From Arthrobacter sp. zg-Y769 (lineage in GTDB: Bacteria > Actinomycetota > Actinomycetes > Actinomycetales > Micrococcaceae): 64,000 nucleotides of DNA. Numbering within the stretch: position 1 is the stretch's first letter; each line of letters begins with the position of its first letter. Shown here piece after piece: positions 35,603 through 56,126 of this stretch. A program made the position numbers and the translations under genes. The notes beneath the pieces were generated by a model. The model did not search any database. It worked only from the letters and a program-made list of their open reading frames with translations, and had not been told where the DNA came from. The DNA lies in assembly GCF_020907405.1 (NCBI RefSeq), contig NZ_JAJJOE010000011.1:248001-312000 (forward strand), read 5' to 3'.

Positions 35603-35615
35603 TTCTGCGGCGGGG

Positions 35616-39346: not shown

Positions 39347-39360
39347 CAGCCGCAGCAAAC

Positions 39361-39390
39361 GGGGGCCGGGTGCATAGGCACCCGGCCCCC
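39361..39390 (+). terminator. Perfect 13-bp hairpin after the Asp-rich gene
   Basis: GGGGGCCGGGTGC (39361-39373), loop ATAG, GCACCCGGCCCCC (39378-39390). It starts 15 bp after the stop; there is no U tract, but the stem is very stable. Confidence 0.75.
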
Positions 39391-39472
39391 GTGGTGGCAT
39401 AGATCCGGGCTCAAGAAGCGGGCGCTGCCGGCCCCGGGTAGCGTGGTGGATATCTCCGCAGGACAGTTATAG

Positions 39473-39985: not shown

Positions 39986-39990
39986 GTTCG

Positions 39991-40401
39991 ATGGGCATTT
40001 CCATCAATGCTGCTTTTCTTCCCCAGACGGACCCGGATGCCTCGCTGGCGTTCTACCGCGACGTTCTAGGCTTCGAAGTCCGCAACGACGTCGGCTACGG
40101 CGACATGCGGTGGATCACGGTGGGGCCGCCGGACCAGCCCGGGACGTCCATTGTGCTGGAACCGCCCGCGGCGGATCCCGGCGTTACCGACGCCGAGCGC
40201 CGGACCATTGAAGAAATGATGGCCAAGGGCACCTATGCCGGAATGCTGCTGGCAACTGCCGATCTGGATGCGACGTTCGACCGCGCCGTCGCCGGGGGAG
40301 CAGAAGTCATCCAGGAGCCCATGGACCAGGACTGGGGCGCCCGCGACTGCGCCCTGCGGGACCCGGCCGGCAACCAGCTGCGGATCCAGGAACTGCGGTA
40401 G
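39991..40401 (+). CDS. VOC (glyoxalase/bleomycin-resistance) family protein
   Basis: This 136-residue protein has two beta-alpha-beta-beta-beta units: DPDASLAFYRDVLGFEVRND at the start and LDATFDRAVAGGAEVIQEPMD in the second half, ending CALRDPAGNQLRI. Members bind metals or small ligands. The strongest hint to its role is the adjacent AraC regulator. ATG 39991 follows GAGAGGGTGAG. Substrate unknown. Confidence 0.88.
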   Translation: MGISINAAFLPQTDPDASLAFYRDVLGFEVRNDVGYGDMRWITVGPPDQPGTSIVLEPPAADPGVTDAERRTIEEMMAKGTYAGMLLATADLDATFDRAVAGGAEVIQEPMDQDWGARDCALRDPAGNQLRIQELR

Positions 40402-40403
40402 CT

Positions 40404-41609
40404 CTATTCCCGGCGCGGCTCGGGCACCAGATCCAGGAGGTGGGTCTCCACATAGTCCAGGGCCAGGCGGACCGCGCCGGTGGGCACCAGCATCGTCCCC
40501 AGGTTTGAGACGGCAACCCGGGGCGGCTTCACTACGTACCGGTCCAGCTCACGCGTCATGGCGGGCAGGAGCGCAGTCGCCGACGCCGCCACTGCACCGC
40601 CGACCACGATCAGCCGCGGATCAAAGAACGAGGACACCAGTGCCAGCACCCGGGCCATCCGCCGGGCAATCCGGTCCAGGATTTCTTCGGCAACCGGATC
40701 CCCCGCCTCGGCTGCCTCGAAGACCAGCCGGGCTGAGGCACGGTTGGTATCCGGCCCCACGAGTTCCCGGATCCGTCCGTTGTGCCCTGCCTTCAACGCG
40801 GCGCTGCCCCAGAGCCGCGCGAGCTTGGCAATGCCGTCCTCGTTGCCCACTCCTTCCACCAACTCCAGCGCGCCCATGGCTCCGGTGCCGCCGGATGCAC
40901 CGTGCAGCAGCCGTCCCGACTCGATGATGCCGCTGCCCAGGCGCTCGCCGGCCAGGATGACGGCCAGATTCTCTTCGCCTGCCCCCACCCCGCGCCAGCG
41001 CTCGGCCAGCGCCGCGAGCTTGGCATCGTTTTCCACCAGCAGCGGCCAGCCCCGGGAGTCGCTGAAGGTGGAGCTCAGCCCGAGGTCGAACATCGGCGCC
41101 ACCTCCTGGCCGGGGACAACGGCGCCGGCGCCGTTGACCTGGGCGGCGATGCCCATTCCGGCGCACAGCACCGCTGCCGAGGAAATCCCGGCATCGGCCA
41201 GGGCGGCGTCGACGGCCTCGGTGACCACCCGGCGTCGTTGGTCCGGCTCCCCGCCGTGGCGGGGGAAGCGGGCCTCGGATTCGCCGACGACGGCGCCCGA
41301 AAGGTCCGCGGCCAGCACCCGGACGGTGGCGATGCCGACGTCGAGCCCCAGGACGTAGCCGGCGTTCTCGTTGAATTCGAAGCGCCGGGCCGGCCGGCCT
41401 TTTTGCCGGTCGATCCGCGGGGACATCGTTTCCCGGGCCCAGCCCCGGGCAATCAGGTCATCGCACACGGCAATAACCGTTGCGCGCGTCAGGCCCGTGG
41501 CCTGGATCAGGTCGGTACCCGTGACGGACGGGGCAGCACGGAGCACCTCCAGCACTGCCCGCAGGTTGGTGCGGCGCAGCAGCTGCGGAGTGTTTGCGGA
41601 GGCATCCAT
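40404..41609 (-). CDS. ROK family transcriptional regulator
   Basis: This 401-residue protein has an N-terminal winged helix (about 10-75, SVTGTDLIQATGLTRATVIAV) fused to a ROK sugar-kinase-like domain with LGLDVGIATVRVLAADLSG, VLCAGMGIAAQVNG and the ILAGERLGSGII block. The zinc-binding Cys motif of typical ROK proteins is not obvious. It is divergent from gap with an AAATTTAG palindrome between them, suggesting sugar-responsive control of gap and of itself. Its stop lies two bases from the convergent VOC stop. Confidence 0.9.
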   Translation of the reverse strand: MDASANTPQLLRRTNLRAVLEVLRAAPSVTGTDLIQATGLTRATVIAVCDDLIARGWARETMSPRIDRQKGRPARRFEFNENAGYVLGLDVGIATVRVLAADLSGAVVGESEARFPRHGGEPDQRRRVVTEAVDAALADAGISSAAVLCAGMGIAAQVNGAGAVVPGQEVAPMFDLGLSSTFSDSRGWPLLVENDAKLAALAERWRGVGAGEENLAVILAGERLGSGIIESGRLLHGASGGTGAMGALELVEGVGNEDGIAKLARLWGSAALKAGHNGRIRELVGPDTNRASARLVFEAAEAGDPVAEEILDRIARRMARVLALVSSFFDPRLIVVGGAVAASATALLPAMTRELDRYVVKPPRVAVSNLGTMLVPTGAVRLALDYVETHLLDLVPEPRRE

Positions 41610-41620
41610 GTAAGTGGCCT

Positions 41621-41649
41621 TTGACGTGTGGCGGTAATAACAGCATAAT
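41621..41649 (+). promoter_or_regulatory. Sigma-70-type promoter of gap
   Basis: -35 TTGACG (41621-41626), 17-bp spacer, -10 CATAAT (41644-41649). The predicted start near 41656 lies just before the palindromic operator at 41663. Confidence 0.6.
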
Positions 41650-41654
41650 TATAG

Positions 41655-42713
<1,059 letters not shown>

Positions 42714-42725
42714 TCAGCACCAAGC

Positions 42726-42777
42726 ACGACGGCGCCGCGCCGGGCTCCCTGAGGGTCCGGGCGGCGCCGTCGTCGTT
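42726..42777 (+). terminator. Terminator after gap
   Basis: ACGACGGCGCCGC (42726-42738) pairs with GCGGCGCCGTCGT (42761-42773), with a 22-base loop that itself can fold, followed by CGTTT. Confidence 0.8.
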
Positions 42778-42808
42778 TAACGTTGCGGTGCCGTTCCAAG
42801 AGCAGCCC

Positions 42809-43018
42809 ATGCGGGCTCCGGGCGGCCGGTTCCATGACGATTCACCGCGGCCCGCCCTGGGGATGAAGACCAGCAGTTATGATGTCCGGCAGGAGATCAT
42901 CATCGACCCTGCCACCGGCCAGCCCATTGGTGAGCGCGAGGTCCTGCGCGGCATTCCTGCCGGAACGGCAACGGCCTGGACTGCCGTCACTACCTCCGTA
43001 GTGGATTCAGCACCGTAG
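42809..43018 (+). CDS. Small hypothetical protein (69 aa)
   Basis: The C-terminal 50 residues contain a coherent block, YDVRQEIIIDPATGQPIGEREV, that looks protein-like with balanced codon use. I do not recognise the family. ATG 42809 has a weak AAGAG six bases upstream. ATG 42863 (51 aa, starting MKTSSYDVRQ) is an equally possible start. It lies between the gap terminator and the DUF2975 gene. No function assigned. Confidence 0.5.
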   Translation: MRAPGGRFHDDSPRPALGMKTSSYDVRQEIIIDPATGQPIGEREVLRGIPAGTATAWTAVTTSVVDSAP

Positions 43019-43113
43019 GTTTGCCGAAACCTCTTGTGTAATCTGTCGTTTATCGATAATTATTGGTTGTCCTTCAATCGAATCAGTTCGATAGGTGCGG
43101 CAGGGAGCGCGTG

Positions 43114-43605
43114 ATGGGAAGAACCACCATCCTGGTGTTGCGGATAGTCCTGGCTCTGGTGCTCGTCGGCACCCTGTTTGTCCAGGCGGTGATGGTGCCC
43201 TTGTTCGGTATCGACCTGGCCGAAGCCGGTGCGGAAGCGGTCCGGGTGCCAGTGCTCCTTATCGTGGTGCTGGGCATCCTCGCGTTCCAGGTCTGCCTGG
43301 TCTGCGTCTGGCGGCTGCTGACCATGGTGCGCCGGGGACCGGTCTTCTCCTCCGCCGCCTTCCGCTACGTGGATGTGATCATTGGTGCGATCACTGCCGC
43401 AGCCCTGCTGCTGTTCGCGCTGGGCACGGTGCTGGCCCCGGGCGAGGAAGTGGCGCCGGGCATTGTCCTGCTGATCGGCGGCATGGGGATTACCGTTGCG
43501 GCCGGCGCCCTGCTCGTCCTGGTGATGCGCGCACTGCTGGCCTCCGCCGTCGCCACGGCTGCCGAAGCCGCCCGTCTGCGCACCGAACTGGGCGGTGTCA
43601 TCTGA
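43114..43605 (+). CDS. DUF2975 membrane protein
   Basis: This 163-residue protein has four hydrophobic segments and the DUF2975 layout, including VWRLLTMVRRGPVFSSAAFRYVDVI between helices 2 and 3. DUF2975 proteins are almost always paired with a small YozG-like HTH protein, as here: the next gene overlaps by one base (TGATG). GGGAG lies before the start, and GTG 43111 is an alternative. The spacer upstream is A/T-rich (43030-43080) and should hold the promoter. Role unknown, possibly membrane-linked transcription control. Confidence 0.85.
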   Translation: MGRTTILVLRIVLALVLVGTLFVQAVMVPLFGIDLAEAGAEAVRVPVLLIVVLGILAFQVCLVCVWRLLTMVRRGPVFSSAAFRYVDVIIGAITAAALLLFALGTVLAPGEEVAPGIVLLIGGMGITVAAGALLVLVMRALLASAVATAAEAARLRTELGGVI

Positions 43606-43898
43606 TGCCGATCATCGTGGACATTGACGTGATGCTCGCCAAGCGGAAAATGCCCGTGGGCACCCTGGCCGAACGGATCGGCATCACCCCCGCAAACCTT
43701 GCGGTCCTGAAAAACGGCCGCGCCAAGGCGGTCCGCTTCACCACCCTGGCCGCCCTTTGCGAGGCGCTGGACTGCCAGCCCGGTGAACTCCTCCGGTGGG
43801 AGCCGGAGGAAGGGGACGGGGACGCGCTGGACGGCGGCGTCCTGCCGCACTCGGGTTCCCGGGACTCCGCTGCGGCGGATATCCGCGCCCGGGAGTAG
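43605..43898 (+). CDS. YozG-like HTH transcriptional regulator
   Basis: This 97-residue protein contains an Xre-type HTH: MLAKRKMPVGTLAERIGITPANLAVLKNGRAKAVRF, then LAALCEALDCQPGELLRWEPEE. It is the standard partner of DUF2975 proteins and is translated from an ATG overlapping that gene's stop. The acidic, disordered tail after residue 65 is longer than in most relatives. It probably autoregulates the pair. Confidence 0.88.
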   Translation: MPIIVDIDVMLAKRKMPVGTLAERIGITPANLAVLKNGRAKAVRFTTLAALCEALDCQPGELLRWEPEEGDGDALDGGVLPHSGSRDSAAADIRARE

Positions 43899-43936
43899 CT
43901 GCCAGGGGTCACGGTGCCGCTCGTGGCTGGTCTCGG

Positions 43937-44728
43937 TCACGGCCAGGAGTCCTCCTCCTCGTGGCAGATGACCATCTCCCGGACCTCGCAGCCCCTCGGC
44001 TGGCCCAGTACAAACAGGATCGCGGCAGCCACGTTTTCCGGATCGTTCAGCCGCGAATCGTCCTGCGGCCGGTACTGCTCGGTGCGGTCGTCGAAGAACC
44101 GGGTCTTCATCCCGGCCGGAATCATGGTGGTGACGCCTATCCGGCCGCGGGTTTCGGCCGCCAGTGCACGGCTGAACCCGACCACGCCGAACTTCGAGGC
44201 GCAGTACGCCGTTGCATCCGAAACCGCCTTGATGCCCAGCGAGGACGCCACCGTGACCACCCGGCCGTGGCTGCGCTGCAGATGCGGCAGCGCCGCGCGG
44301 ACCACGGAGACGGTGCCCATCAGGTTCACGCCGATGACTTTCTCCCATTCCTCCGCCGCCACGTCCTCCAGCCGGCCGCAGCGGTCGATCCCGGCCGCGG
44401 TCACCACGGCATCCAGTCCGCCGAGGTCCGCCGCGGCCTGTTCCACCGCCGCTTCGACGGCGGCCCGGTCGGCCACATCCGCCTGGAAGGCCTTCACCCC
44501 GGCCACGTTGCTGATATCCCGGTCCAGGACGACGGCGATGCCGCCCGCAGCGGTGACGGCGGAGACGACGGCGGCACCCAGCCCGGAATTGCCGCCGGTC
44601 ACCAGGACCCGGCCGGTGAACACCGCGGGAAGGGGGAGCGTTGGGAGGAGGGGGTCCGGGATGGGGAGAGGACCGGGCACAGGATCCGGGAGGGAGGCCG
44701 GCACGGGGACCGCGGGGGACAGGCTCAT
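43937..44728 (-). CDS. Short-chain dehydrogenase at the end of heptose cluster B
   Basis: This 263-residue classical SDR has VLVTGGNSGLGAAV near residue 40, the NAG-like TAAGIDRCG near 115 and catalytic YCASKFG near 178. The first 36 residues are a Pro/Leu-rich stretch with no Rossmann content; AAAGGAC six bases before ATG 44728 supports keeping it. It is a 3-oxoacyl-reductase-like SDR, not an extended HldD epimerase, which it could be mistaken for by context. It is 55 bp after hldE on the same strand. Substrate unknown. Confidence 0.85.
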   Translation of the reverse strand: MSLSPAVPVPASLPDPVPGPLPIPDPLLPTLPLPAVFTGRVLVTGGNSGLGAAVVSAVTAAGGIAVVLDRDISNVAGVKAFQADVADRAAVEAAVEQAAADLGGLDAVVTAAGIDRCGRLEDVAAEEWEKVIGVNLMGTVSVVRAALPHLQRSHGRVVTVASSLGIKAVSDATAYCASKFGVVGFSRALAAETRGRIGVTTMIPAGMKTRFFDDRTEQYRPQDDSRLNDPENVAAAILFVLGQPRGCEVREMVICHEEEDSWP

Positions 44729-44783
44729 GGGAAGTCCTTTCGATGGAACGGGTAGGGGCGGTGGAGACAGGGCATGGGGCCGC

Positions 44784-46148
44784 TCAGCCGACCTTCGCCA
44801 GCGCCGAGGCCAAAGCCGTGGTGGAACGGGCCGGATGGAACGGGACCGTGACGGTTTCCCCGCCCCAGGAGCGGATCAGCGCGGCCTCCGGGAGTTGGTC
44901 TTCGCGGTAGTCGCCGCCCTTGACCCAGATGTCCGGCCGCAGCCGCTCCAGCACCGCCGCCGGGGTGTCCTCCTCGAAGACCAGCACCCCGTCCACGCAT
45001 TCCAGGGACTGCAGCAGTTCCGCCCGGTCTTCGGCGCCGATGATCGGGCGCTGCTCGCCCTTGAGCCGGCGGACCGAGTCATCGGAATTGAGGCAGACAA
45101 TCAAACAGTCGCCCAGCCCGCGGGCGGCCAGCAGGGTGCGGGCGTGTCCGGCGTGCAGCAGATCGAAGCAGCCGCCGGTGGCCACCACGGTTCCGCCGCG
45201 CTCCCGGACCCGTGCCACCGCCGCCAGGGCGTCCGGCGGCTCGCCGCCCGGCAGCCGCAGCGGTTCTTCCGCCTCCAGACCGGATACGCCGCCGCCGGCC
45301 AGGAAGGCGGCCGCCGCCTGCACCGCGCCTTCGGCAGCAGCTTGGAGCCCGTCGCCGTCGAGCAGCCGGACGGTGAGGGACGCGGCAAACCGGTCACCGG
45401 CACCGCAGGTGTCGTCGACGGAAATCTTCGGGGCGGGAAGAACCTGCGCAAGGCCCGCCGCGGGGAGGGCCAACGCGCCCTGCGCCCCCATGGTGAGCAC
45501 CACGGACCGGCTTTGCCAGCGGGTCAGCAGCCGTTCGGCCGCGCGCAGTGCCGCCGGAACCCCGCCCGTCGCCTCGTCGGCAGCGGACAGGGCCTCGGCC
45601 AGGTTCGGAGTGACGGCGGCGACGCCGGGCACCGGATCGGACCCGGCCGGATGCGGGTCCCAGACCACGGGAATGCGTTGGGCCAGAGTCTCCAGCAGCG
45701 TCCGGAGGGCCGGATTGGCGGTCAGCCCGCGCCCGTAGTCGGCGACCACCACCGCGTCCGCGCCCGCGACGACGGAGAGCATCTGGGCGGTGACCGCAGG
45801 AACCGGCGCGGGGGAGCAGCCGGAATCGAAGCGGACCACGGCGTGGGTGCCGGCCCGGATCCGGGTTTTCACCGGGGTGGGGGCATCGGACGGGCCGCTG
45901 GTCAGGGGGATGCCGGCCAGCGCGGCCCGCAGCAGTCCGGAAGCGTCGTCGTCGGAGAGCACCGTCACCAGGTGGACCTGCCGGCCGTCCCGCTCCAGCA
46001 TCCGCGCCACCAGGCCCGCCCCGCCGGCCCGGCGGCCGACGTCGTCCACCTCCACCACGGGCACCGGCGCGTCGGGGGAGAGGCGCTGGGCGGAACCGGA
46101 AATGTCCGTATCCAGCAGGACATCGCCGACCACGACTATTCTCTTCAC
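44784..46148 (-). CDS. hldE: Bifunctional HldE-like kinase/adenylyltransferase (cluster B)
   Basis: This 454-residue enzyme has a kinase half (1-300) with GGAGLVARMLERDGRQVHL and DDTCGAGDRFAASL. The nucleotidyltransferase half has ATGGCFDLLHAGHARTL and NSDDSVRRLKGEQRPIIG. It phosphorylates D-glycero-D-manno-heptose 7-phosphate and, after GmhB, joins AMP to make ADP-heptose. It is leaner than the cluster A copy (526 aa) and differs throughout, so the two are not a recent duplication. GTG 46148 overlaps the gmhA stop by GTGA. Confidence 0.92.
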   Translation of the reverse strand: MKRIVVVGDVLLDTDISGSAQRLSPDAPVPVVEVDDVGRRAGGAGLVARMLERDGRQVHLVTVLSDDDASGLLRAALAGIPLTSGPSDAPTPVKTRIRAGTHAVVRFDSGCSPAPVPAVTAQMLSVVAGADAVVVADYGRGLTANPALRTLLETLAQRIPVVWDPHPAGSDPVPGVAAVTPNLAEALSAADEATGGVPAALRAAERLLTRWQSRSVVLTMGAQGALALPAAGLAQVLPAPKISVDDTCGAGDRFAASLTVRLLDGDGLQAAAEGAVQAAAAFLAGGGVSGLEAEEPLRLPGGEPPDALAAVARVRERGGTVVATGGCFDLLHAGHARTLLAARGLGDCLIVCLNSDDSVRRLKGEQRPIIGAEDRAELLQSLECVDGVLVFEEDTPAAVLERLRPDIWVKGGDYREDQLPEAALIRSWGGETVTVPFHPARSTTALASALAKVG

Positions 46149-46771
46149 GGTGTTCCTCCTGCATCGGTGCGCCGCGCGACCTCGGCGTCGAAGGACCGGC
46201 AGAGCGCATGCAGGGCCACCAGATGGGCCTCCTGTGCATTGGCTGCCGGCGCGTCAATGGCGATGAAGTCCTCGCACGCCGCCGCGAGGGGGTTCGGTGC
46301 CCGGCCGGTCAAGGCCCAGGTGCGCAGCCCCGCCCCGTGCGCGGCCTGCACGGCGGCGAGCAGGTTGGGGCTGGCGCCGCTGGTGGAGAAGAGGATCAGG
46401 ACGTCCCCGGGCCTGCCGTGGCCCTGCACCTGCCGGGCGTAGAGCTGCTCGAAGCCGTAATCGTTGGCGATTGCGGTCACCGCTGAGGTCTCCGCATGCA
46501 GGGCGATGGCGGAAAACGGCCGGCGCTCGCCATCGAACCGTCCCACAAGTTCGGCGCTCAGATGCTGGGCTTCGGCGGCGGACCCGCCGTTTCCCGCGGT
46601 CAGCAGCCGGTGCCCGGCCAGCAGGCGGACCGCCAGCTCGATGCCCCACTGCGTCAGGTGTCCGGCCTGCCGCTGGACGGAGAGCAGGGCGGGCTGCGCA
46701 TGGGCGAGATGGTCCAGCACTGCCTGCTCCGGTCCGGAGACGGGCGCGGTTACCGGTGATTCGATGCTCAC
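46145..46771 (-). CDS. gmhA: Sedoheptulose-7-phosphate isomerase
   Basis: This 208-residue SIS-domain protein starts the heptose pathway by turning sedoheptulose 7-phosphate into D-glycero-D-manno-heptose 7-phosphate. The family motif AGNGGSAAEAQHLSAELVGRF lies near residue 57, with HAETSAVTAIANDYGFEQLYARQV (catalytic Glu and Asp region) and STSGASPNLLAA (phosphosugar site). GTG 46771 overlaps the GT4 stop by GTGA, and hldE overlaps its own stop, so synthesis is coupled. Confidence 0.93.
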   Translation of the reverse strand: MSIESPVTAPVSGPEQAVLDHLAHAQPALLSVQRQAGHLTQWGIELAVRLLAGHRLLTAGNGGSAAEAQHLSAELVGRFDGERRPFSAIALHAETSAVTAIANDYGFEQLYARQVQGHGRPGDVLILFSTSGASPNLLAAVQAAHGAGLRTWALTGRAPNPLAAACEDFIAIDAPAANAQEAHLVALHALCRSFDAEVARRTDAGGTP

Positions 46772-48024
46772 AGTGCCTTTCCTCCCAGCGGCTGCAGCCG
46801 GGACGGCCGGGCCGTGACCCCCAGGGCGAGCTGATACGCCTTCTCCGTGTCCAGCGCCACCCGGTCCCACGAGTAACGCGCGGAGGCGCGCTGCTTCCCC
46901 GCCGTGCCCAGCCGCCGGGCGTAGCGGGGATTCTGCAGTAGTTCCGAGAGCGCCGAGGCCAGCGCAGTCGAATCCCGGGGCGGCACATGCAGCCCGGTCT
47001 TGCCGTGGACCACCGTGTCAATCAGTCCGCCCACCGCCGAGGCCACCACCGGCACGGCACACGCCATCGCTTCCAGCGGAACGATGCCGAAGGGCTCGTA
47101 CCAGGGCGCGCACACCACCGCGTCGGCGCTGCGCAGCACGGCGGGCATTTGTTCGCGCGGCACCTGTCCGCGCAGCAGCACCCGGTCCGCTACGCCCAGC
47201 GAGCGGGCGAGGGCCAGCAGCCGCCGGGCCTCGGGGTCCGTTTCCAGGCCGGCGCTGTCGCTGGAACCGCCGACGATCAGCAGTTCCACATCGTCCAGGC
47301 CCTCGTCCCGCAGCAGGGCGAGGGCGCGGATGGCCAGATCCACACCCTTGCGCGGCACCAGGCGTCCGACGGCGGCAATCCGGTGCCGCCGTCCGCGCGG
47401 TTCCGCCGGCCCCTCGGAGGAGAAGAGGGACAGGTCCACCCCGCAGGGGGCAATGGAAATCCGGCTGCCGGGCACCCCGATGGCCTTGAGTTCAAAGACT
47501 TCATCCGAACAGGTGGCCAGCACCCGGTCCGCCCGCCGGCCCACGGAGGGCTCCAGCCATTCCCGTTCCGGCGGGGACGTGTCCTCGGCGCCTTGATGCC
47601 GCTTCTTTACGGTGCCCAGTGCGTGGAAGGTGTGGACCACCGGCACGCCCTCTTCCCCTGCGCTGCGGGCGGCCTCCAGTGCGGCCAGGCCGGACATCCA
47701 GAAGTGGGAGTGCACGACGTCGGGCGGTTCGGCTCCCCAGTCGGCAAGGACGCCGTCGGCCAGCTGCCCCATGTACGGCAGCAGGTCATCCTTGGGCAGC
47801 GGCAGGGCGGGCCCGGCGGTTACATGCACCACCTCCAGGCCGTCCTGGACCTGCACCCGGTCCGGCAGGCCGGGATCGTCCCGCCTCGTGTACACCTGAA
47901 CGGTGTGGCCACGGGCCGCCAGCGCCACGGAGAGCGCGGCCACATGCACGTTCTGGCCGCCGGCATCCACTCCGCCCAGTGCGGCCAGCGGACTTGCGTG
48001 TTCGGACACCATTGAGATTTTCAC
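46768..48024 (-). CDS. Family 4 glycosyltransferase (MshA-like fold)
   Basis: This 418-residue GT-B enzyme begins VKISMVSEHASPLAALGGVDAGGQNVHVAAL. GGVDAGGQNVHV is typical of MshA/sucrose-synthase-like GT4 proteins. The C-terminal donor site has GRLVPRKGVD and the EX7E motif in YEPFGIVPLEAMACAVPVVA. GTG 48024 with GGAGG upstream overlaps the previous stop (GTGA). It probably adds a sugar in the heptose-containing glycan. The donor may be ADP- or UDP-linked. Confidence 0.9.
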   Translation of the reverse strand: MKISMVSEHASPLAALGGVDAGGQNVHVAALSVALAARGHTVQVYTRRDDPGLPDRVQVQDGLEVVHVTAGPALPLPKDDLLPYMGQLADGVLADWGAEPPDVVHSHFWMSGLAALEAARSAGEEGVPVVHTFHALGTVKKRHQGAEDTSPPEREWLEPSVGRRADRVLATCSDEVFELKAIGVPGSRISIAPCGVDLSLFSSEGPAEPRGRRHRIAAVGRLVPRKGVDLAIRALALLRDEGLDDVELLIVGGSSDSAGLETDPEARRLLALARSLGVADRVLLRGQVPREQMPAVLRSADAVVCAPWYEPFGIVPLEAMACAVPVVASAVGGLIDTVVHGKTGLHVPPRDSTALASALSELLQNPRYARRLGTAGKQRASARYSWDRVALDTEKAYQLALGVTARPSRLQPLGGKAL

Positions 48025-49049
48025 AGCTGTCCCCCTCCTGTTGATGCCGGTGCGGGTTCCGCCGCCGCAGGCAGCGGCGGGGCGGAAACCGTCTCTGTCA
48101 GCAGTTCCGCAAAGAGTTCGTCCCAATCGGCCAGGAACCGGCCCAGCCCGTACCGGGCCAGCGCTGCCCCGCGGGCGGCCCGGCCGCAGGTGCGTGCCTG
48201 CTCCGGTTCCGCGAGGAACATCCGCGCGGCCCGGAGCAGTTCCTCGGGATCATTGCTGAGCACTCCAGCCTCCGGCGGGACCGCCCGTGCGGCCTCAGTG
48301 GTGGCAAGGGCCACCACCGGCAGGCCCAGGTGCATGGCTTCGAGCAGGGACAGGCCCAGCGAGGTCCAACGCATGGGGTGCAGGTACGCCCGACAGCCGG
48401 CCAGTTCCCGGTGCAGCCGGGCCACGGGCAGGTCCCCGTGGATCAGCAGCCCGTCCCCGCCCGGCACTCCGGGCAGCTGGTCGGTGCCGAGGCCGAATAC
48501 TTCCAGCGGTGCCGTCCGGGCGAATGCCGGCAGCAGGTCGGTGCCTGCGACCCGCCCGCGGCGGACCGGCTCGTTCACCACCACCCCCAGATGCGGACGC
48601 TCCCCGGTGTAGAGGTAGCCCGGATCGGGAATGCCGTGTTCGATCACGCGTACCGGTGCCTTGCCGTTGTCCCAGAACAGGCGGTTGAAGTGCGTGACAT
48701 GCACAATCGGAATATCGGACTGGTCGGCCAGCGGATGCCGGGTTTCCGGCACGCTGCCGCGTGGAGTGTTGTGTTCCAGGTACACCGCGGGAAGATCGCG
48801 GCCCGGCCGGCGCCCGAGCAGGCGGACGCAGGCCTCAATCTCTTCGGGCCGCTGCAGCACGACGGCGTCGATCTGCTGGGCGCGCAGATCTTCCACCGCG
48901 ACTTCCACGGCGGCTTCCGGCCACCTCCGCCCGCCGCGTCCCAGCCCCCAGCCGTCCCGGGCAGGGGTGGCCGGCAGCAGATACCGGTGGGCCCCCCGGA
49001 CAAACGCCTCCATCCAGCCGCCGTGCACGTGCCACAGCAAAATCCTCAT
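48021..49049 (-). CDS. GT-B glycosyltransferase (GT4/GT1-like)
   Basis: This 342-residue protein starts MRILLWHVHGGW and has YLEHNTPRGSVPETRHPLADQ near residue 95. The C-terminal region CRAYLHPMRWTSLGLSLLEAMHLGLPVVALATTEA has a variant EX7E-type motif where the first Glu is Ser-Leu-Gly, as in several family members. It overlaps the GT9 gene by ATGA at its start and the GT4 gene at its end. Substrate unknown. Confidence 0.88.
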   Translation of the reverse strand: MRILLWHVHGGWMEAFVRGAHRYLLPATPARDGWGLGRGGRRWPEAAVEVAVEDLRAQQIDAVVLQRPEEIEACVRLLGRRPGRDLPAVYLEHNTPRGSVPETRHPLADQSDIPIVHVTHFNRLFWDNGKAPVRVIEHGIPDPGYLYTGERPHLGVVVNEPVRRGRVAGTDLLPAFARTAPLEVFGLGTDQLPGVPGGDGLLIHGDLPVARLHRELAGCRAYLHPMRWTSLGLSLLEAMHLGLPVVALATTEAARAVPPEAGVLSNDPEELLRAARMFLAEPEQARTCGRAARGAALARYGLGRFLADWDELFAELLTETVSAPPLPAAAEPAPASTGGGQL

Positions 49050-50107
49050 CGGCTCCTCATTTCACGGTGCGTCTGCAGTGACGGCACGCCGGTGACCAGG
49101 CGTTGGACCGCCTCCACCACCTGTTCGGGCGAGACGCCGGACAGGCAGGGATGCCCGGGGACCGGGCAGGTCCTGGCGCGGGTTCCGCCGCAGGCGGCGT
49201 GCTGGTCGCCCAGCAGCTCCAGCGGAACGCGATAGGGTGCCCAGCGGATGGCGGGCACCACGGGAGCGAAAAGGCTCACTACCGGGGTGCCAACCGCGGC
49301 TGCGAGATGGGCCGGTCCGGTATTGCCGACAACCACCGCGTCCGCCCCGGCCAGGACGGCCGCCAAAGCCGCCAGATCGGTCCGTCCGCCAAGGTCCAGG
49401 CCGGCCACGGCCGCTACGGTGGCGGTCAGCTCCTTCTCACCCGGCCCGCCGGTGACCACCACGCGGAAACCGGCTGCGGTGAGCAGCTCGACGGCGGCGG
49501 CATGGTGCAGGGCGGGCCACGCCCGTGCCGACACGGCAGCGCCCGGATGCACCACGACGTAGGGGTCGGTGCCCACCAGATGGGAGACATCGGGCAGCGG
49601 ACCCAGCTGCAGCCGGCCGTCGTCGCCGGCAGGAAGCGCAAAACCTGCGGCAGCCGCGATCCGCAGCGCACGTTCGGCCTCGGGCTGGTCTTCGGGGAAG
49701 TCCTCCCCGGGCTTCAGCCGGTGGGTCAGCAGGGCACCGGCGTAATCCGTGGATGCCGCGGTGATGGTGCGGATCCCGGCTTCCCGGAGCAGCAGTGCCA
49801 GCGGCAGCGGGGACTGGTGGTAGGACGTGAGGATTACCGCTTCCTCGGTCCGGGCGGACCGGACCATTCCCAGCAGTGCAGCAAGCAGGCCGCGGGAAGG
49901 TTCCGGGGCCGGGTTCAGGATCCAGGGACAGGACCACTCCAGCACCTGCGAGACACCGGGAAGCAGCCGTCCGGCGGCCGCACCCTGCGGACCGCACAAC
50001 AGGACCACTTCCACACCCCGGGCCGCCGCCATTGCCCGGACGGCTGGTCCCGCCAGCAGGACGTCCCCGGCGCCGTCGAGCCGGGCCACCAGTATCCGGC
50101 GGCTCAT
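49046..50107 (-). CDS. Family 9 glycosyltransferase (heptosyltransferase-like)
   Basis: This 353-residue protein has the GT9 start ILVARLDGAGDVLLAGPAVRAMA, YVVVHPGAAVSARAWPA, and the donor motif VVGNTGPAHLAAAVGTPVVSLFAP. A Cys-containing tail CGGTRARTCPVPGHPC is shared in type with GT9 members of this group. It sits between gmhB and the GT genes with 4-bp overlaps on both sides. GT9 enzymes use ADP-heptose, which fits the pathway genes around it. The acceptor is not LPS in this organism, so it must be a different glycan. Confidence 0.92.
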   Translation of the reverse strand: MSRRILVARLDGAGDVLLAGPAVRAMAAARGVEVVLLCGPQGAAAGRLLPGVSQVLEWSCPWILNPAPEPSRGLLAALLGMVRSARTEEAVILTSYHQSPLPLALLLREAGIRTITAASTDYAGALLTHRLKPGEDFPEDQPEAERALRIAAAAGFALPAGDDGRLQLGPLPDVSHLVGTDPYVVVHPGAAVSARAWPALHHAAAVELLTAAGFRVVVTGGPGEKELTATVAAVAGLDLGGRTDLAALAAVLAGADAVVVGNTGPAHLAAAVGTPVVSLFAPVVPAIRWAPYRVPLELLGDQHAACGGTRARTCPVPGHPCLSGVSPEQVVEAVQRLVTGVPSLQTHREMRSR

Positions 50108-50637
50108 CTGCTGCCCCACAGCAGGTCCACGGCCCCCGCCAGATCGCGCGCCACGAGCGGGGCCGCGGCGGTTTCAGCGGGGCGGGTGGCGGCGGTGGGC
50201 ACCAACACCCCGCGTGACCCCGCGGCGGCTGCGGCTTTCACATCGGCACCAATGTCGCCGATGACGGCTACTTCCACGGGATCGAGCCCCAGGCGGCGGC
50301 TGGCCCGCAGCACCAGGCCGGGCATCGGCTTGCGGCAAACGCAGCCGTAGCCGGGAGCATGCGGACAAATTTCCCAGATATCGAACGGGCCCAGCAGGTC
50401 TTCGACCGCCGCATTGACCTTCGCCACCTCTTCGGCGGACAGGATTCCGCGGCCGATGCCGGACTGGTTGGTGACTACGCCTACGGGAATGCCTGAACGC
50501 CGGAGCCCGGCCAGCACCTCGGCTGCACCGGGCATGGGCCGCACCTTCGTCGGATCCGCGTTGTAGGGCACGTCAACAATCAGCGTGCCGTCCCGGTCGA
50601 ACAGGACGGCACGCGGCGGCGACGGCAAAAATTCCAT
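50104..50637 (-). CDS. gmhB: D-glycero-D-manno-heptose-1,7-bisphosphate 7-phosphatase
   Basis: This 177-residue HAD phosphatase has the DxD nucleophile in LFDRDGTLIVDVPYN, VTNQSGIGRGI, and the GmhB-specific zinc loop CPHAPGYGCVCRKP near residue 90. IGDIGADVKAA carries the last acidic pair. It removes the 7-phosphate between the two HldE steps. It is first in the coupled operon gmhB-GT9-GT-GT4-gmhA-hldE-SDR, divergent from a further GT9 gene 138 bp away. Confidence 0.93.
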   Translation of the reverse strand: MEFLPSPPRAVLFDRDGTLIVDVPYNADPTKVRPMPGAAEVLAGLRRSGIPVGVVTNQSGIGRGILSAEEVAKVNAAVEDLLGPFDIWEICPHAPGYGCVCRKPMPGLVLRASRRLGLDPVEVAVIGDIGADVKAAAAAGSRGVLVPTAATRPAETAAAPLVARDLAGAVDLLWGSR

Positions 50638-50775
50638 ACCGCATCTGTTCCCCGCCCGGCGGGAAGCTAAACATCCCGCCGGTCACTTCTTGGCCGGCCT
50701 GCACTGCCGCCCCACCTGTATCGAAGGCGCGCAGGGTTCTGGCAGGATATGCACCCGACCGAAAGGAAGCCGCCC

Positions 50776-51714
50776 ATGCCGCAAATGGCCAGTCGTCCCG
50801 AGCTGTTGGTGCTGCGTGCCCTGAAACTGGGGGATCTCCTGGTTGCGGTTCCGGCGCTGAAGGCCCTGCGGCGCCGGTTTCCCGGGCACCGCATCCGGTA
50901 TGCGGCGCAGGAGTGGCTGCGCCCCATCCTGCCGCTTACCGGCGCGGTGGATGATCTGCTTCCCCTGCACGGCCTCGATGTGCCCATCCCCCTGGAGCCC
51001 GGACAGATCGACATTGCGGTAAACCTGCACGGCCGCGGTCCGGAGAGCTGCGGCCGGCTGGAGGTGCTGCAGCCCTCCCGTCTTATCGGACACGCCGGAC
51101 CCGGGTGGGACGGTCCGCCATGGAAGGACGGCGTGCACGAACGTGAGCGGTGGGCGGGACTACTGTCCTGGCACGGGATCCCCGCCGATCCGCTGGATTA
51201 CCGCCTGGACCCGCCGCCGGCGGCGGCAAATACCCCGGAAACGGTGGTGATCCATGTGGGCGCGGCGTACGGCAGCCGGTTGTGGCCCGCAGACCGGTTT
51301 GCCGACGTCGCCCGTGAACTGGCCGCCGTCGGCGCTCCGGTTCTCTTCACCGGCAGCGGAGGTGAACGCCCGCGGGCGCTCGCCGTGGCCGACGCCGCCG
51401 GGCTGGGTGCGGAGTGCGTCGTGGCAGGCGAGCAGCGCCTGGACGCGTTTGCCGCGGTAATTTCCCGGGCCCGGCTGGTGATCTCCGCCGATACGGGTGC
51501 CGCGCATCTCGCGTCAGCCTACGCCCGGCCGTCGGTGGTCCTGTTCGGCCCGGCGCCGGTCAGCGAATGGGGCCCTCCTCCGGGCCCGCACATCGCGCTG
51601 ACCGACGGGAGCCGGCGCCGGGGTGACACCTTCGCTCCGGACCCTGACCCCGCGCTGCTGGCGGTCACGGTGGAGGACGTCCTGGCCGCCGTCGGGAAGC
51701 TGGACGCGCTTTAG
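50776..51714 (+). CDS. Family 9 glycosyltransferase (heptosyltransferase-like), divergent
   Basis: This 312-residue GT9 protein has VLRALKLGDLLVAVPALKAL at the start, VVIHVGAAYGSRLWPADRFADVA and the donor motif ISADTGAAHLASAYARPSVVLFGPA. ATG 50776 follows GAAAGGAAG, the same RBS type as the GT9 gene at 26058. It faces gmhB from the other side of a shared promoter region and converges on the LD-carboxypeptidase, the two stops overlapping as TTAG. It probably adds heptose to the same glycan. Confidence 0.9.
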   Translation: MPQMASRPELLVLRALKLGDLLVAVPALKALRRRFPGHRIRYAAQEWLRPILPLTGAVDDLLPLHGLDVPIPLEPGQIDIAVNLHGRGPESCGRLEVLQPSRLIGHAGPGWDGPPWKDGVHERERWAGLLSWHGIPADPLDYRLDPPPAAANTPETVVIHVGAAYGSRLWPADRFADVARELAAVGAPVLFTGSGGERPRALAVADAAGLGAECVVAGEQRLDAFAAVISRARLVISADTGAAHLASAYARPSVVLFGPAPVSEWGPPPGPHIALTDGSRRRGDTFAPDPDPALLAVTVEDVLAAVGKLDAL

Positions 51715-52754
51715 CTGTCGCTAAGGCGCAGCCTGGCGCCGGATTCATCCACCGCCAGTTCCACCCGGCCGCCGATGGGCAGGGTCAGCTGCGGCTGGGT
51801 GTGTCCGAAATCCACGTTGGCCAGGACCGGCAGCCCGGCCAGGGCAGGCTGGGCCGCGATTTCCTGCAGGTGCGCCCGGGTGATGCCGCTTGAACGCTGG
51901 AACCTGCCGATGACCAGGCCCTGTATATCTTCCGCGTCGGGCAGCTGGAGCAGGGACGTGAGGTCACGGGCGAAGGTGCTGGGATCGGTGGAGGCATCGT
52001 CTTCCAGCATCAGTACGCTGCCGGCCAGCGGAGGCATCTGCGCAGTGCCCTGCAGGAGGTTCAGTGTGCACAGGTTGCCGCCGATAATACGGCCGGACGC
52101 GTTCCCCTGCTGCAGGGGCCACCATCCTTCCCCCGGCTGGGGACTGCGGTTGTCCTGATCCAGGAACCAGGCATCGTCGGTCCACTCGGGGGAGGGGGCC
52201 AGCTCCATCCGATAGCCGTCAACCAAGGCGTCCACAAACCACTGCTGTGTTAGCTCAAGGTGGTCCCGCATGCCGAAGGTGGACCAATGCGGACCGGAGT
52301 AGGTGACCAGGCCGGTGCGGGCGAAAATCGCGTTCTGCAGCGCCGTAATGTCGGAATATCCGCACAGGATCTTCGGATTGGCCGCAATCAGGTCCCAGTC
52401 CAGGTAGGGGAGCAGTTCGTTGCTGTTGAAGCCGCCGATGACGGTGAGAATCCCTTTGACCGCCGGATCGGCAAACGCGTCATGCAGGTCCGCGACGCGG
52501 GAGGCGACCGAGGTGGAGTCGAAGATGTCGCGCTCATCCACATGGCGTCCGTAGGAAAGCCGCAGGCCCAGGTCGGCGAAACGGCGCTCGATGAGTGCGC
52601 TGTGGTCGTGTTCGGCGACCATGGCGCGGCTGGCCGCAGGGGCAATGACGCGCAGCAGGTCGCCCTTGGCCAGTTTCGGCGGGACGGTGATCGAGGGGAC
52701 TGTATTGTCCGGAGTATTGTCCGGAGCATTGTCCGGAGCGGGGGCAGAATCCAT
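51711..52754 (-). CDS. LD-carboxypeptidase (peptidase family S66)
   Basis: This 347-residue protein matches S66 serine peptidases (LdcA/MccF): AKGDLLRVIAPAASRAM near residue 30, LTVIGGFNSNELLPYLD near 100, CGYSDITALQNAIF with the catalytic Ser near 120, and C-terminal VLANVDFGHTQPQLTLPIGG with the His. Family members cleave L,D bonds in muropeptides or microcin C-type toxins. ATG 52754 was chosen. The N-terminal 18 residues are a Thr/Asn/Pro repeat from three 12-bp DNA repeats. Confidence 0.9.
   Translation of the reverse strand: MDSAPAPDNAPDNTPDNTVPSITVPPKLAKGDLLRVIAPAASRAMVAEHDHSALIERRFADLGLRLSYGRHVDERDIFDSTSVASRVADLHDAFADPAVKGILTVIGGFNSNELLPYLDWDLIAANPKILCGYSDITALQNAIFARTGLVTYSGPHWSTFGMRDHLELTQQWFVDALVDGYRMELAPSPEWTDDAWFLDQDNRSPQPGEGWWPLQQGNASGRIIGGNLCTLNLLQGTAQMPPLAGSVLMLEDDASTDPSTFARDLTSLLQLPDAEDIQGLVIGRFQRSSGITRAHLQEIAAQPALAGLPVLANVDFGHTQPQLTLPIGGRVELAVDESGARLRLSDS
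52704..52739. repeat. Three 12-bp tandem repeats at the 5' end of the LD-carboxypeptidase gene
   Basis: The unit ATTGTCCGGAG(T/C) occurs three times, encoding P-D-N-T/A-type tetrapeptides before the folded domain. It is a likely slippage product and should not affect the active site. Confidence 0.85.
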
Positions 52755-52819: not shown

Positions 52820-53617
52820 TCAAGCGGTTGCGGCGCCGCTGGCCGCAGGGCCTGACGTCCGGGCCGCCGGGGTGGCTGAAGCGTCCAGCAACTCATGTTG
52901 CAGCCGCACCAGGATCCTGGCCAGGCCACGGGAAACCTGCATCTGGGTCATGCCCAGCCGCTCTCCGATAGCCTGCTGGGATTCCTCGTGGAAATACCTA
53001 AGGAACAGTAATTCCTTGTCCTGGGCGCTCAGGCCGCGGACAGCGCGGCGGAGCATGGCAAGGTTCTCGGCCCGCTCCAGCCGTCCGTCGGCTACGGCCC
53101 ACTGTTCCGCGCCGGTGTCCTCGAGTGCTTCCAGGGACTCGGGGCGAAGGCTGCTCTGGCAGTTCAAGGCTTCCGACACGGCTTTCGTGGGAACCCCCAG
53201 GGCCTCGGACAATTCCCGGAGTGTTGGCTCGCGTCCCAGCGTCTGCAGGAGTTCCGGCTGAAGCCTGGCAATGGAGGTCCGCAGATCCTGGAGCTGCCGG
53301 GGCGGCCGGATTACCCATGAGTGATCCCGGAGGTACCGCTTGAGCTCTCCCTGGACGGTGGGAACCGCGAAGGCGGGAAAATGCGGGCCGACAGCCGGGT
53401 CAAAACGTCGAACCGCCTTGATAAGTCCCAGATAGGCGACCTGCCGCAGGTCGGCCAGCTCGCGCCCTCTTCCCGCGTAGGAGGCGGCAGCCGTTTCCGC
53501 GATTTCGCGGTACCGGAGGACGAGTTCGTTGTGCAGCGCCTGCTGCAGGTCGCCGCGTGCCTGGCGGGCCTTTTCAAACGGAAGCAGGGAGGACGGAACA
53601 CTGGAGAAAGCGCTCAT
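52820..53617 (-). CDS. SigB/SigF-family RNA polymerase sigma factor
   Basis: This 265-residue group 3 sigma factor has region 2 (ELVLRYREIAETAAASYAGRGRELADLRQVAYLGLIKAVRRFDP), region 3 (LREL-SEALGVPTKAV) and region 4 (LSAQDKELLFLRYFHEESQQAIGERLGMTQMQVSR). It resembles general-stress or sporulation-type SigB/SigF proteins of actinobacteria. No anti-sigma (RsbW) or anti-anti-sigma gene is adjacent, which is unusual for this class. It converges on nothing and ends 66 bp before the LD-carboxypeptidase start. Confidence 0.9.
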   Translation of the reverse strand: MSAFSSVPSSLLPFEKARQARGDLQQALHNELVLRYREIAETAAASYAGRGRELADLRQVAYLGLIKAVRRFDPAVGPHFPAFAVPTVQGELKRYLRDHSWVIRPPRQLQDLRTSIARLQPELLQTLGREPTLRELSEALGVPTKAVSEALNCQSSLRPESLEALEDTGAEQWAVADGRLERAENLAMLRRAVRGLSAQDKELLFLRYFHEESQQAIGERLGMTQMQVSRGLARILVRLQHELLDASATPAARTSGPAASGAATA

Positions 53618-53719: not shown

Positions 53720-54049
53720 TTACTGCTTCTTGAGCTCTTGGCGGAGCAGAAGGTATAAGCGCCGCGAACGGCCCGTGTCCGCTGGAGCGTCAGGCCGCGT
53801 TTCGGCGGGAGCGCCCCTGCCGCCTTCGGAGCGGTGCAGCACCAACGCGGCGACGGCGGCCGCTGCCACCGGGGCGCTTCCCAAGGCGATCATGATGCTG
53901 CAGTACATCCACAGGAACATCAGGGTGGGCGGGGTGCCGAGCGGAGCCTCCAGGAATCCGATGGCCAAAACCAGCCAGAATGCCGCACAGGCGGCGAGGA
54001 GAATCCAGGCGGTGCGGCGGCTAAGCAGGGTGAGCAGCTTTTGCTCCAT
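53720..54049 (-). CDS. Hypothetical two- to three-TM protein
   Basis: This 109-residue protein from ATG 54049 starts MEQKLLTLLSRRTAW, with hydrophobic segments at about 13-35, 43-60 and 62-78. The C-terminus (80-109) is hydrophilic and charged, GRSRRLYLLLRQELKKQ. It may be a small membrane protein co-transcribed with the sigma gene on the same strand (103-bp gap). Family not recognised. Confidence 0.65.
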   Translation of the reverse strand: MEQKLLTLLSRRTAWILLAACAAFWLVLAIGFLEAPLGTPPTLMFLWMYCSIMIALGSAPVAAAAVAALVLHRSEGGRGAPAETRPDAPADTGRSRRLYLLLRQELKKQ

Positions 54050-54437: not shown

Positions 54438-55802
54438 CTAGGACTCCGGAACCAGGCGGCGGCGGTTGAACAGCAGGGCTGCGCCACCGGCGGCGAGCAG
54501 GGCTGCTCCGCCTCCGGCCAGCAGGCCCAGGTCCGCTGCACCGGTTTCGGGCAGCGTGGCCGTTGCTGGGGCCGGGTTGCCGACCGGAACGGGGTTGACG
54601 GTAACCGGCGGATCAGCGACTGCTGCGGTGATCCTAAAGTTCACAATGGCGGGATCGGAGGTTACTCCCCCGGAATTCTGAACGGCGAAGATCAGATAGG
54701 AACCCATGCCCCTTTCCCTCATCGGGACAGCCCAGCTGCCGTCGGGACCCGCCTGTGTCTCCAGCTCTTCATAGTTTGCCGGATCTTCATAGTCCAGTGA
54801 CGGATCGAGTTCCCCATTTTCGTCGACAGCTGCGATAACCAGGTGGATAGTGGCTCCGGGGACAGCGGTACCGGTGATCTCAGCCGGGAGTTTATTCACG
54901 GGGATCTCGGAGCCGTTGCCGGGCGAGACCACTACGGGCGCCTCAGGGTAGACACTGACCCTCAAATAGATCGGCACGGCAGCCGCCTTGAGGGTCGCGC
55001 TGTCCTGAATCGCCGACAAGAGATGCGTGCCATAATCCAGCGGCTCTTCGAGCTTCAGCGTCCAGACGCCGTCCGCGCCGACAAGGGCAGTATGGAATTC
55101 TTCGTTCGTTTCCACTGCATCACGCATAACGCCGACTGTCACCGTGGCACCGGCTACGCCGGTGCCGGTTACGACGCTCAGCGGACCCTCCATGTCCCTG
55201 GGCGTGGTGAAGCCCGGCTGCGGAGCATAGCCGCTTTTGACGGTGAATTCGTAGGTTGCAATAGCCGACTTGGCATCTCCGTTAACGCCCTGGACAGTGA
55301 CGGTGAGCTTGCCTCCTGCGGGGATCTGCGCGGGCGTCCTGAAGCTGAACCTATCGGTGTCATTGATGGGAGTGGTCGTGGAGACCTCACCATTCAAGGT
55401 CAGCACGATCTGCGTGGCCCCGGGGGCGGTACCGAAGTAAAGTTGGTCCGTCATAACGATGTTCGTAGGGTCATGCGTGATGGTCGGGGTCAGCGGGATG
55501 TCTCCGGGCACCGCCGCCGGTGTTGCTTCCTGCGCCGGAGCCGGCGCCGGAGCCGGAGCCGGCGCAGGAAGTGTTGCGGTTCCGTCGGTTGCAGGCTGCA
55601 CGGGAGCATCAGTGGCCGTGTCGTTTGCATTGGTTTCCGTAGCCACGGGTGCCGGGGACTCGACTGCCGCCGACCCCGTACCATCCTCTTGCGGGGCCAT
55701 GGCCATCGCGGGGCTGGCAATAAATGCCCCGCTGACGGCCAAAAGGGCTACGGCGCTAACGGCGCCGACCCGTGCCGAAATAGTCCGTGTATTTTCCTGC
55801 AT
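54438..55802 (-). CDS. LPXTG-anchored surface protein with Ig-like repeats
   Basis: This 454-residue secreted protein has a basic N-terminus and hydrophobic signal peptide cut near ASPAMAMA (about 37). A Pro/Ala/Thr linker (50-105) is followed by about three Ig-like beta domains, recognisable by repeated GTGVAGATVTVGV, GTAVPGATIHLVI and G-DG-W patterns (LVGADGVWTL, QAGPDGSWAV). The C-terminus carries the sortase signal LPETG, a hydrophobic stretch and RRR-tail. ATG 55802 has GGGGGA eight bases upstream. It is covalently wall-attached and probably an adhesin or structural protein. No sortase gene is in the window. Confidence 0.92.
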   Translation of the reverse strand: MQENTRTISARVGAVSAVALLAVSGAFIASPAMAMAPQEDGTGSAAVESPAPVATETNANDTATDAPVQPATDGTATLPAPAPAPAPAPAQEATPAAVPGDIPLTPTITHDPTNIVMTDQLYFGTAPGATQIVLTLNGEVSTTTPINDTDRFSFRTPAQIPAGGKLTVTVQGVNGDAKSAIATYEFTVKSGYAPQPGFTTPRDMEGPLSVVTGTGVAGATVTVGVMRDAVETNEEFHTALVGADGVWTLKLEEPLDYGTHLLSAIQDSATLKAAAVPIYLRVSVYPEAPVVVSPGNGSEIPVNKLPAEITGTAVPGATIHLVIAAVDENGELDPSLDYEDPANYEELETQAGPDGSWAVPMRERGMGSYLIFAVQNSGGVTSDPAIVNFRITAAVADPPVTVNPVPVGNPAPATATLPETGAADLGLLAGGGAALLAAGGAALLFNRRRLVPES

Positions 55803-56126
55803 GAAATTTTCCCCCATAAAACGTCGACCTCCAGCGTTCCGTGCTGGCTTTCGCGGCAGCTGGAGAATGCGGAGGGAACGAGACTGAAACTGCTAAATGA
55901 GTAGTTGAAGAGCGCCCGGTAATCGGCGCCGTCAATAAGTAATAACTGCAACAAATGAGACCTATGCCACAGATATCGCCGAGAATAGCGTGCGGTTCTT
56001 GAGATAGCAAGGATTCAACCCATTTGTACAAAAGGCTCATTGAAACGGTTTCCCGCGCCCGGTAGCGTCGCCGTCGTAATCCCCGGACTTCGTGTCCCGG
56101 GCTGTCGCAAACCTTCAGGGAGCTAC
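55803..56126. other. 324-bp intergenic region between LPXTG and EamA genes
   Basis: Noticeably A/T-richer than its surroundings (55860-56050), with divergent promoter potential. A TTGAGA-like -35 near 55998 is visible but no certain -10. I see no gene or hairpin in it. Confidence 0.5.

Follow-up and report, generated by a model that had tools for sequence, protein, structure and literature searches.

Heptose glycans are best known from the lipopolysaccharide (LPS) of Gram-negative bacteria, and the Gram-negative pathway to adenosine diphosphate (ADP)-heptose comprises the isomerase GmhA, the didomain kinase and nucleotidyltransferase HldE, the phosphatase GmhB and the epimerase HldD. Actinobacteria handle heptoses as well: septacidin biosynthesis in Streptomyces was reportedly described by Tang et al. 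in 2018, and tridomain nucleoside diphosphate (NDP)-heptose synthetases of actinobacteria reportedly by Tang et al. in 2022, a study that may already describe parts of the neighborhood considered here. We analyzed a heptose locus of Arthrobacter sp. zg-Y769 (Actinomycetota, Micrococcaceae) that lies in a 64,000-nucleotide stretch of contig NZ_JAJJOE010000011.1, referred to here as the window, whose numbering is used throughout. NDP-heptose synthesis at this locus is well supported by protein family, motifs and gene neighborhood. What is new here is a conserved SigB/SigF-type promoter before gmhB, together with a sigma factor gene that co-occurs with the locus. The best explanation of the whole, which we hold with moderate confidence, is that synthesis of a heptose-containing glycan, probably located in the envelope, is turned on by a stress-type sigma factor dedicated to it.

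The core of the locus (43937-51714) has the gene order gmhB, GT9a, GTx, GT4, gmhA and hldE1 on the minus strand; with the start codons used here, neighboring genes share exactly 4 bp at all five junctions. The series is followed by a gene for a short-chain dehydrogenase/reductase (SDR) 55 bp beyond hldE1 (Table 1). Pfam gathering scores are exceeded by PfkB and CTP_transf_like in hldE, SIS_2 in gmhA and HAD families in gmhB, as well as by two Glyco_transf_9 and two GT4-type proteins. Coordinates, Pfam matches and motifs bear out the original prediction of gmhB, gmhA and hldE with a family-9 glycosyltransferase (GT9), a GT4 and another glycosyltransferase in one 4-bp-overlapping operon with a divergent GT9, but the five glycosyltransferases it counted in this interval come to four. 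Scanning named genomes with a GTx profile yielded at least 587 relatives, of which the best 80 were kept as named loci. Of these 80, 65 exceed 18 kb; they were all selected by the presence of GTx, and 60 of the 65 contain all eight core genes (GT9b is missing in four and HldE1 in one). This recurrence indicates that the grouping of the genes is not due to chance.

The pathway enzymes retain their characteristic motifs. GmhA matches a solved GmhA over residues 21-197 (3.7e-38) with the active-site stretches kept, and GmhB aligns with 4pnh through its own active-site stretches, DRDG and the Cys/His loop C.H...C.CRKP. The kinase domains of both HldE copies keep the PfkB fold and the GAGD motif, and both nucleotidyltransferase domains exceed the TIGR02199 cut-off of 181.5 bits (scores in Table 1). 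In HldE1, the kinase half matches the solved heptose-7-phosphate kinase 4e84, and the other half the 'putative cytidylyltransferase' 5x9q, the best solved nucleotidyltransferase match, which we take to be HldC. The alternative GDP-heptose pathway (HddA/HddC) employs a GHMP kinase and an HddC-type guanylyltransferase, whereas the kinase at this locus is of the PfkB type and the transferase is CTP_transf_like. No HldD epimerase scored over the cut-off in the genome (best 88.8 bits versus 274.6), and the sugar therefore probably stays in the D,D form.

Which nucleotide the heptose carries bears on the name of the product. HldE1 has FHPARSTT near its C-terminus, with Arg at the fifth place of (F/L)XXGXSTT and Ala for Gly at place 4. 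This STTR5 arginine is found in 65 of the 75 open reading frames (ORFs) labelled HldE1 and 18 of the 55 labelled HldE2, where the labels are those of the best hit, so that a few may be swapped. In the HldE1 alignment, L038 has a broken reading frame that was aligned as is. The fifth-place residue is His in the second copy of the window (YVSDHSTT, not STTR5) and Cys in E. coli HldE. The arginine is reported to permit formation of the adenosine, cytidine and uridine diphosphate (ADP-, CDP- and UDP-) heptoses, according to passages of PMC11461863 and PMC11573728. Because HldE1 has this arginine, the predicted ADP-heptose may be too narrow a product, while NDP-heptose stands on family, motifs and neighborhood.

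The promoter before gmhB has the sigma-B/sigma-F consensus shape, and the gmhB transcript is predicted to be leaderless or nearly so. Among the 80 named loci, with the window added, a gmhB region was obtained for 64; the strict form of the promoter was present in 40 of the 48 loci with a flanking SigF-like gene (0.02 expected from shuffles) and in 2 of the 16 without one, and six of the eight SigF-bearing loci that lack it have a near variant, as judged by eye. With a looser pattern, matches were found in 52 of 60 SigF-positive and 6 of 20 SigF-negative regions, a set in which some genomes are represented twice and for which single-base shuffles expect 0.6 and 0.1. The first in-frame start codon falls 9 or 10 nt past the promoter in 34 of the 47 loci with a match, and base counts on 11 of the 47 promoters revealed hexamers that hardly vary and a spacer that varies much more. 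Across 101 loci, which include some genomes twice (e.g., L021 and L047), 52 of 55 promoter matches stand before gmhB and three before no mapped start; none was found before the mapped starts of other locus genes. The exact pattern occurs as a single copy in the genome, before gmhB, and it is present in 7 of 8 tested locus-bearing genus genomes, one of which has a second match elsewhere. Since the broader pattern GTTTN15-18GGGAA shows no excess in the window (one found versus 1.2 expected), the evidence for the promoter lies in its placing and its conservation.

The SigF-like protein has sigma-70 regions 2, 3 and 4 over the Pfam cut-offs. When the flanking sigF and MATE genes were mapped in eight genus genomes, no empty-site junction could be defined, and sigF was missing in all six of those that are free of the locus, which prompted a test of co-occurrence with HldE1. 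All 16 HldE1-positive genus genomes have the SigF-like gene and none of the other 13 does; in the family it is found in 36 of 44 HldE1-positive and 5 of 105 HldE1-negative genomes, although the statistics of such co-occurrence are inflated by relatedness and linkage. The product of this gene presumably reads the gmhB promoter. The fixed place of a GTTT...GGG-A promoter before the operon is as expected for a member of a SigB/SigF-type regulon, with transcription being predicted from the sequence.

Table 1. Features of the heptose locus, with positions in the window
Feature	Position	Strand	Description
gmhB promoter	50647-50672	-	GTTTAG-N14-GGGAAC, SigB/SigF type; end 9 nt before gmhB ATG
SigF-like sigma factor (SigB/F/G family)	52820-53617	-	TIGR02980 201.1 bits, below cut-off 234.35
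GT9b	50776-51714	+	divergent family-9 glycosyltransferase; PF01075 1e-19
gmhB	50104-50637	-	heptose 1,7-bisphosphate 7-phosphatase-like HAD phosphatase; PDB 4pnh 1.6e-23
GT9a	49046-50107	-	family-9 (heptosyltransferase family); PF01075 1.9e-25
GTx	48021-49049	-	GT-B fold, GT4-type C-terminal half
GT4	46768-48024	-	sucrose-phosphate synthase / MshA type; PDB 6kih 3e-64, 3c48 1.1e-49
gmhA	46145-46771	-	sedoheptulose-7-phosphate isomerase, SIS domain; PDB 5i01 3.7e-38
hldE copy 1	44784-46148	-	predicted heptose-7-P kinase + heptose-1-P nucleotidyltransferase; TIGR02199 183.6 bits
SDR	43937-44728	-	classical SDR dehydrogenase
GT9c	26058-27212	+	third family-9 glycosyltransferase; PF01075 2.4e-23; SDR neighbor in most of 20 relatives
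Aldehyde dehydrogenase (ALDH)	24305-25768	-	first gene, second operon; PF00171 1.1e-102
hldE copy 2	22728-24308	-	39% identity to copy 1; TIGR02199 190.4 bits
GT2	21817-22731	-	second operon; PF00535 4.3e-12
DUF2795 protein	21633-21824	-	PF11387 1.1e-20; 8-bp overlap with GT2 end; locus membership uncertain

Several features were observed in the vicinity of the promoter and the sigma gene. A perfect inverted repeat (GGCGGGA / TCCCGCC, 50658-50680) overlaps the -35 region of the gmhB promoter and could be an operator. Directly upstream of the sigma gene, a small hydrophobic protein of 109 amino acids is encoded (53720-54049); it has a relative in L096 and is a possible anti-sigma or membrane partner. 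An S66 LD-carboxypeptidase-like gene (51711-52754) lies between GT9b and sigF and has a relative in only one of the 80 named loci, L042. Elsewhere in the family, genome G137 has a SigF-like gene of 47% identity (C1:129090-129830) and no strong HldE match, possibly after recent loss of the locus.

The locus does not end with the core operon. We rejected the interval 43937-51714 as a complete unit, as relatives continue into ALDH-HldE2-GT2 and GT9c. The corresponding second half lies within the window at 21.6-27.2 kb and contains hldE copy 2, the aldehyde dehydrogenase, GT2 and GT9c, which adjoin the operon in relatives. The operon of the original prediction is thus retained, but the whole unit is larger, with two hldE copies, three GT9 genes and apparently its own sigma factor. 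In most of 20 relatives, chosen for having HldE1, the layout is sigF, GT9b, gmhB-GT9a-GTx-GT4-gmhA-hldE1-SDR, GT9c, ALDH-hldE2-GT2; L035-L038 are reduced versions. A stretch of 16.7 kb (27213-43936) splits the halves in this genome; L020 lacks it, and in L019 it measures about 6 kb. The G+C content is 72% in both halves, compared with 67.5% for the whole window and 66.5% for the stretch between them. The stretch itself encodes an NMT1-type protein (Pfam) and, as judged by eye, SDR-, AMP-ligase- and GAPDH-like proteins.

Strong HldE1 matches are present in 44 of 149 family genomes (read from the search table, partial genes included). HldE2 is found in 34 of these 44 and in none of the HldE1-negative genomes; the HldE2 count from the 65-locus tally was not used because of HldE1 cross-matches. 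Within the genus, 16 of 29 genomes have HldE1, and all 16 show another match of lower strength. Of 394 class genomes, which were not selected for GTx, 93 have HldE-like genes at E<=1e-40; of 296 phylum genomes, 30 have GTx, and 20 of these 30 belong to other classes. The loci over 18 kb represent Micrococcaceae, Microbacteriaceae, Brevibacterium, Pseudonocardiaceae, Streptosporangiaceae and Motilibacter, among others, and shorter loci were also found in Micromonospora and Nocardioidaceae; the nearest named GTx among the matches listed is that of Arthrobacter sp. zg-Y238 (87% identity). We considered recent transfer from a Gram-negative bacterium. A tree built from 81 actinobacterial GTx rows mostly follows families, although Micrococcaceae and Microbacteriaceae intermix where the forks are weak and 13 of its 78 inner branches are left open. 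As it has no Gram-negative rows, the tree speaks only for long residence in actinobacteria.

Some relatives carry additional genes or fused proteins. A NodU-type carbamoyltransferase occurs in 9 of the 80 loci (Pfam-checked in L119), and its recurrence suggests a carbamoylated sugar; such O-carbamoyltransferase genes stand beside the heptose core at L119:3706-5346, L099:5876-7507 and L094:7565-9205, in Pseudonocardiales and Streptosporangiaceae. L099 also has UDP-glucose dehydrogenase-like and pyruvyltransferase-like genes. Genes of these kinds accompany surface polysaccharides, which favors an envelope glycan. Among 100 loci, again with some genomes included twice, GT4 is fused to GmhA in eight (four Pfam-checked) and GmhB to GT9a in three, and GT2 is fused to GmhB in L092 and L099; a doubtful joint GTx-GT4 ORF in L026 was not counted. 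These fusions are modest evidence for linked steps, since overlapping neighbor genes fuse easily.

The presence of GT9, GT4-type and GT2 enzymes next to the pathway genes suggests that the heptose is used in a glycan. The genome (3.4 Mb, 23 contigs) has three GT9 matches, all within the window, and in each of the three proteins Glyco_transf_9 is over the Pfam cut-off. GT9a matches the solved structures 3tov (2.1e-12), heptosyltransferase II 1psw (3.7e-8) and heptosyltransferase I 2gt1 (1.1e-7). GTx has the conserved stretches HVHG.W and Y.HP.RWTSLGL, and Foldseek matches to its structure model (mean predicted local distance difference test score 89.4) are GT4-type enzymes. The solved structure nearest to GT4 is 6kih, a sucrose-phosphate synthase, followed by 3c48, which we take to be MshA; against the NCBIfam MshA model GT4 scores 253.8 bits, below the cut-off of 462.5. 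Ser162, Tyr175 and Lys179 of the SDR are invariant across 25 aligned rows, and by analogy with the family they would be catalytic. The structure models of GTx and the SDR confirm folds but not substrates.

A conserved heptose locus across Actinomycetota raises the question of what these bacteria build with heptose. In the explanation that we favor, the SigB/SigF-type sigma factor would read its single-copy promoter and transcribe gmhB-GT9a-GTx-GT4-gmhA-hldE1-SDR. HldE would phosphorylate the sugar at C1, after which GmhB would strip the 7-phosphate, and the sugar would probably be kept as the D,D form. The three GT9 enzymes would transfer the heptose to an acceptor, probably a lipid or a component of the cell wall, to which GT4, GTx and GT2 would attach further sugars; part of the product may be oxidized or reduced by the SDR and ALDH. 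With a single exact promoter for the sigma factor in the genome, the heptose question can be tested through one gene. NDP-heptoses are reported in PMC11461863 and PMC11573728 to be sensed by the mammalian receptor ALPK1, and a commentary (PMC11573728) suggests that heptoses may have further roles, especially in their producers, and that neighboring genes may hint at these. An undescribed heptose glycan, as originally predicted, is still the best fit; a heptose pathway in a Gram-positive bacterium is not in itself novel, as such pathways are already in print for actinobacteria.

Several observations weigh against a sigma-controlled heptose glycan. Some concern its regulation, as the co-occurrence of sigF with the locus could result from linkage alone. 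Eight of the 44 hldE1-positive family genomes, all from genera g4 and g16, have no sigF match at 1e-25 (the three of them that were read have the reduced loci L035-L037), and five family genomes have sigF without hldE1, three of these at 40-43% identity, which may be paralogues. The promoter pattern also occurs in one of eight locus-free genus genomes, and a backwards control gave four matches in 3 of 16 genomes. Moreover, the locus is missing from 13 of the 29 genus genomes and is therefore dispensable in the genus. Others concern the chemistry: GmhA scores 163.8 versus 276 and 137 versus 209.45 against NCBIfam models, GmhB 109.4 versus 178 and 68.3 versus 149.6, and the HldE kinase domains 146.6 (copy 1) and 210.3 bits (copy 2) against the TIGR02198 cut-off of 345. 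These proteins and the three GT9 enzymes are all below equivalog cut-offs, only the HldE nucleotidyltransferase model being passed, and we therefore infer NDP-heptose as the likely product. The HldE1 kinase has GGAGL in place of the GGAAN of E. coli HldE, as do 57 of the 75 ORFs labelled HldE1, while copy 2 retains the Asn (GGAGN). This Asn contacts the sugar in ribokinase-like kinases, so that with Leu in its place the substrate may differ. It is conceivable, given these scores, the Leu and the additional SDR and ALDH, that the pathway has drifted from D-manno-heptose to a different activated sugar. We regard such drift as quite improbable, as GmhA, HldE and GmhB remain together with GT9 enzymes, the alignments of GmhA and GmhB with solved enzymes cover the active-site stretches, and both nucleotidyltransferase domains pass their cut-off.

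The destination of the heptose is a further point of contention, since no flippase, polymerase, lipid-carrier transferase or anchor gene, nor any membrane gene, was seen in the locus (flanks of up to ~10 kb, six loci gene by gene). One alternative is that the product is a soluble heptose-containing small molecule, such as a glycoside, an osmolyte-like oligosaccharide or an antibiotic-like compound. Sucrose-phosphate synthase and MshA, the closest solved relatives of GT4, both make soluble products, and a SigF-type regulator would fit osmotic stress. Septacidin is a known heptose-based compound of Streptomyces, as stated in passages of PMC11461863 and PMC10948575. Under salt stress, Frankia CcI6 is reported in PMC5563000 to raise a gene named ADP-heptose:LPS heptosyltransferase together with a SigF-domain sigma gene; this can serve as a hint only, as those genes may not be this locus. 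Three GT9 and three other glycosyltransferases are, however, many for a small molecule, the wide and largely family-following distribution is unlike that of a typical secondary-metabolite cluster, and no polyketide synthase, nonribosomal peptide synthetase or export gene was noted among the locus genes read, and we consider a soluble product somewhat unlikely. Another candidate acceptor is a surface protein, for example the nearby protein with an LPETG sorting-type end (54438-55817), which the GT9 enzymes might decorate; protein heptosylation is known in E. coli through the aah gene, as noted in part of PMC11461863. That protein has a relative in only 2 of the 80 loci (L042 and L096), and no dedicated substrate gene was seen to recur among the unlabelled families, making protein heptosylation very improbable. 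Beyond the heptose glycan itself, a wider and tentative proposal, which we think unlikely, is that the locus specifies an equivalent of the LPS inner core found across the actinobacterial phylum: a heptose glycan or glycolipid not yet described, which in Micrococcaceae would be under a single-promoter sigma factor. In it the heptose phosphate made by GmhA would be the acceptor of GT4, the enzyme fused to GmhA in several genera, and part of the product would be assembled on a sugar phosphate before activation.

Among open-licence papers, searches judged by title or start of abstract yielded none on a polymer of heptose from Micrococcaceae or any other actinobacteria. Like the Gram-negative ADP-heptose pathway, the locus has an isomerase, a didomain HldE and a phosphatase with kept motifs, but it differs in having no HldD over the cut-off, two HldE copies, glycosyltransferases in the same operon and no LPS expected. 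It shares the GT9 family with WaaC, WaaF and WaaQ of the LPS inner core, although its three GT9 enzymes are under the cut-offs of those models and an LPS acceptor is not expected. The tridomain NDP-heptose synthetases belong to the same phylum, and heptose nucleotidyltransferase activity is expected here too; however, gmhA and hldE are separate at this locus, with GmhA fused to GT4 in some relatives, and a single isomerase-kinase-nucleotidyltransferase chain was absent from the window and found in one doubtful case (L082) among 100 loci. As in septacidin biosynthesis, an actinobacterium would make heptose from sedoheptulose 7-phosphate, but no nucleoside-antibiotic genes were noted among the genes read and the three GT9 enzymes point to a glycan. 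Finally, the sigma factor family and the promoter shape are like those of sigma-B/sigma-F stress operons, whereas here the exact promoter occurs once in this genome, and within the genus the sigma gene accompanies a single locus.

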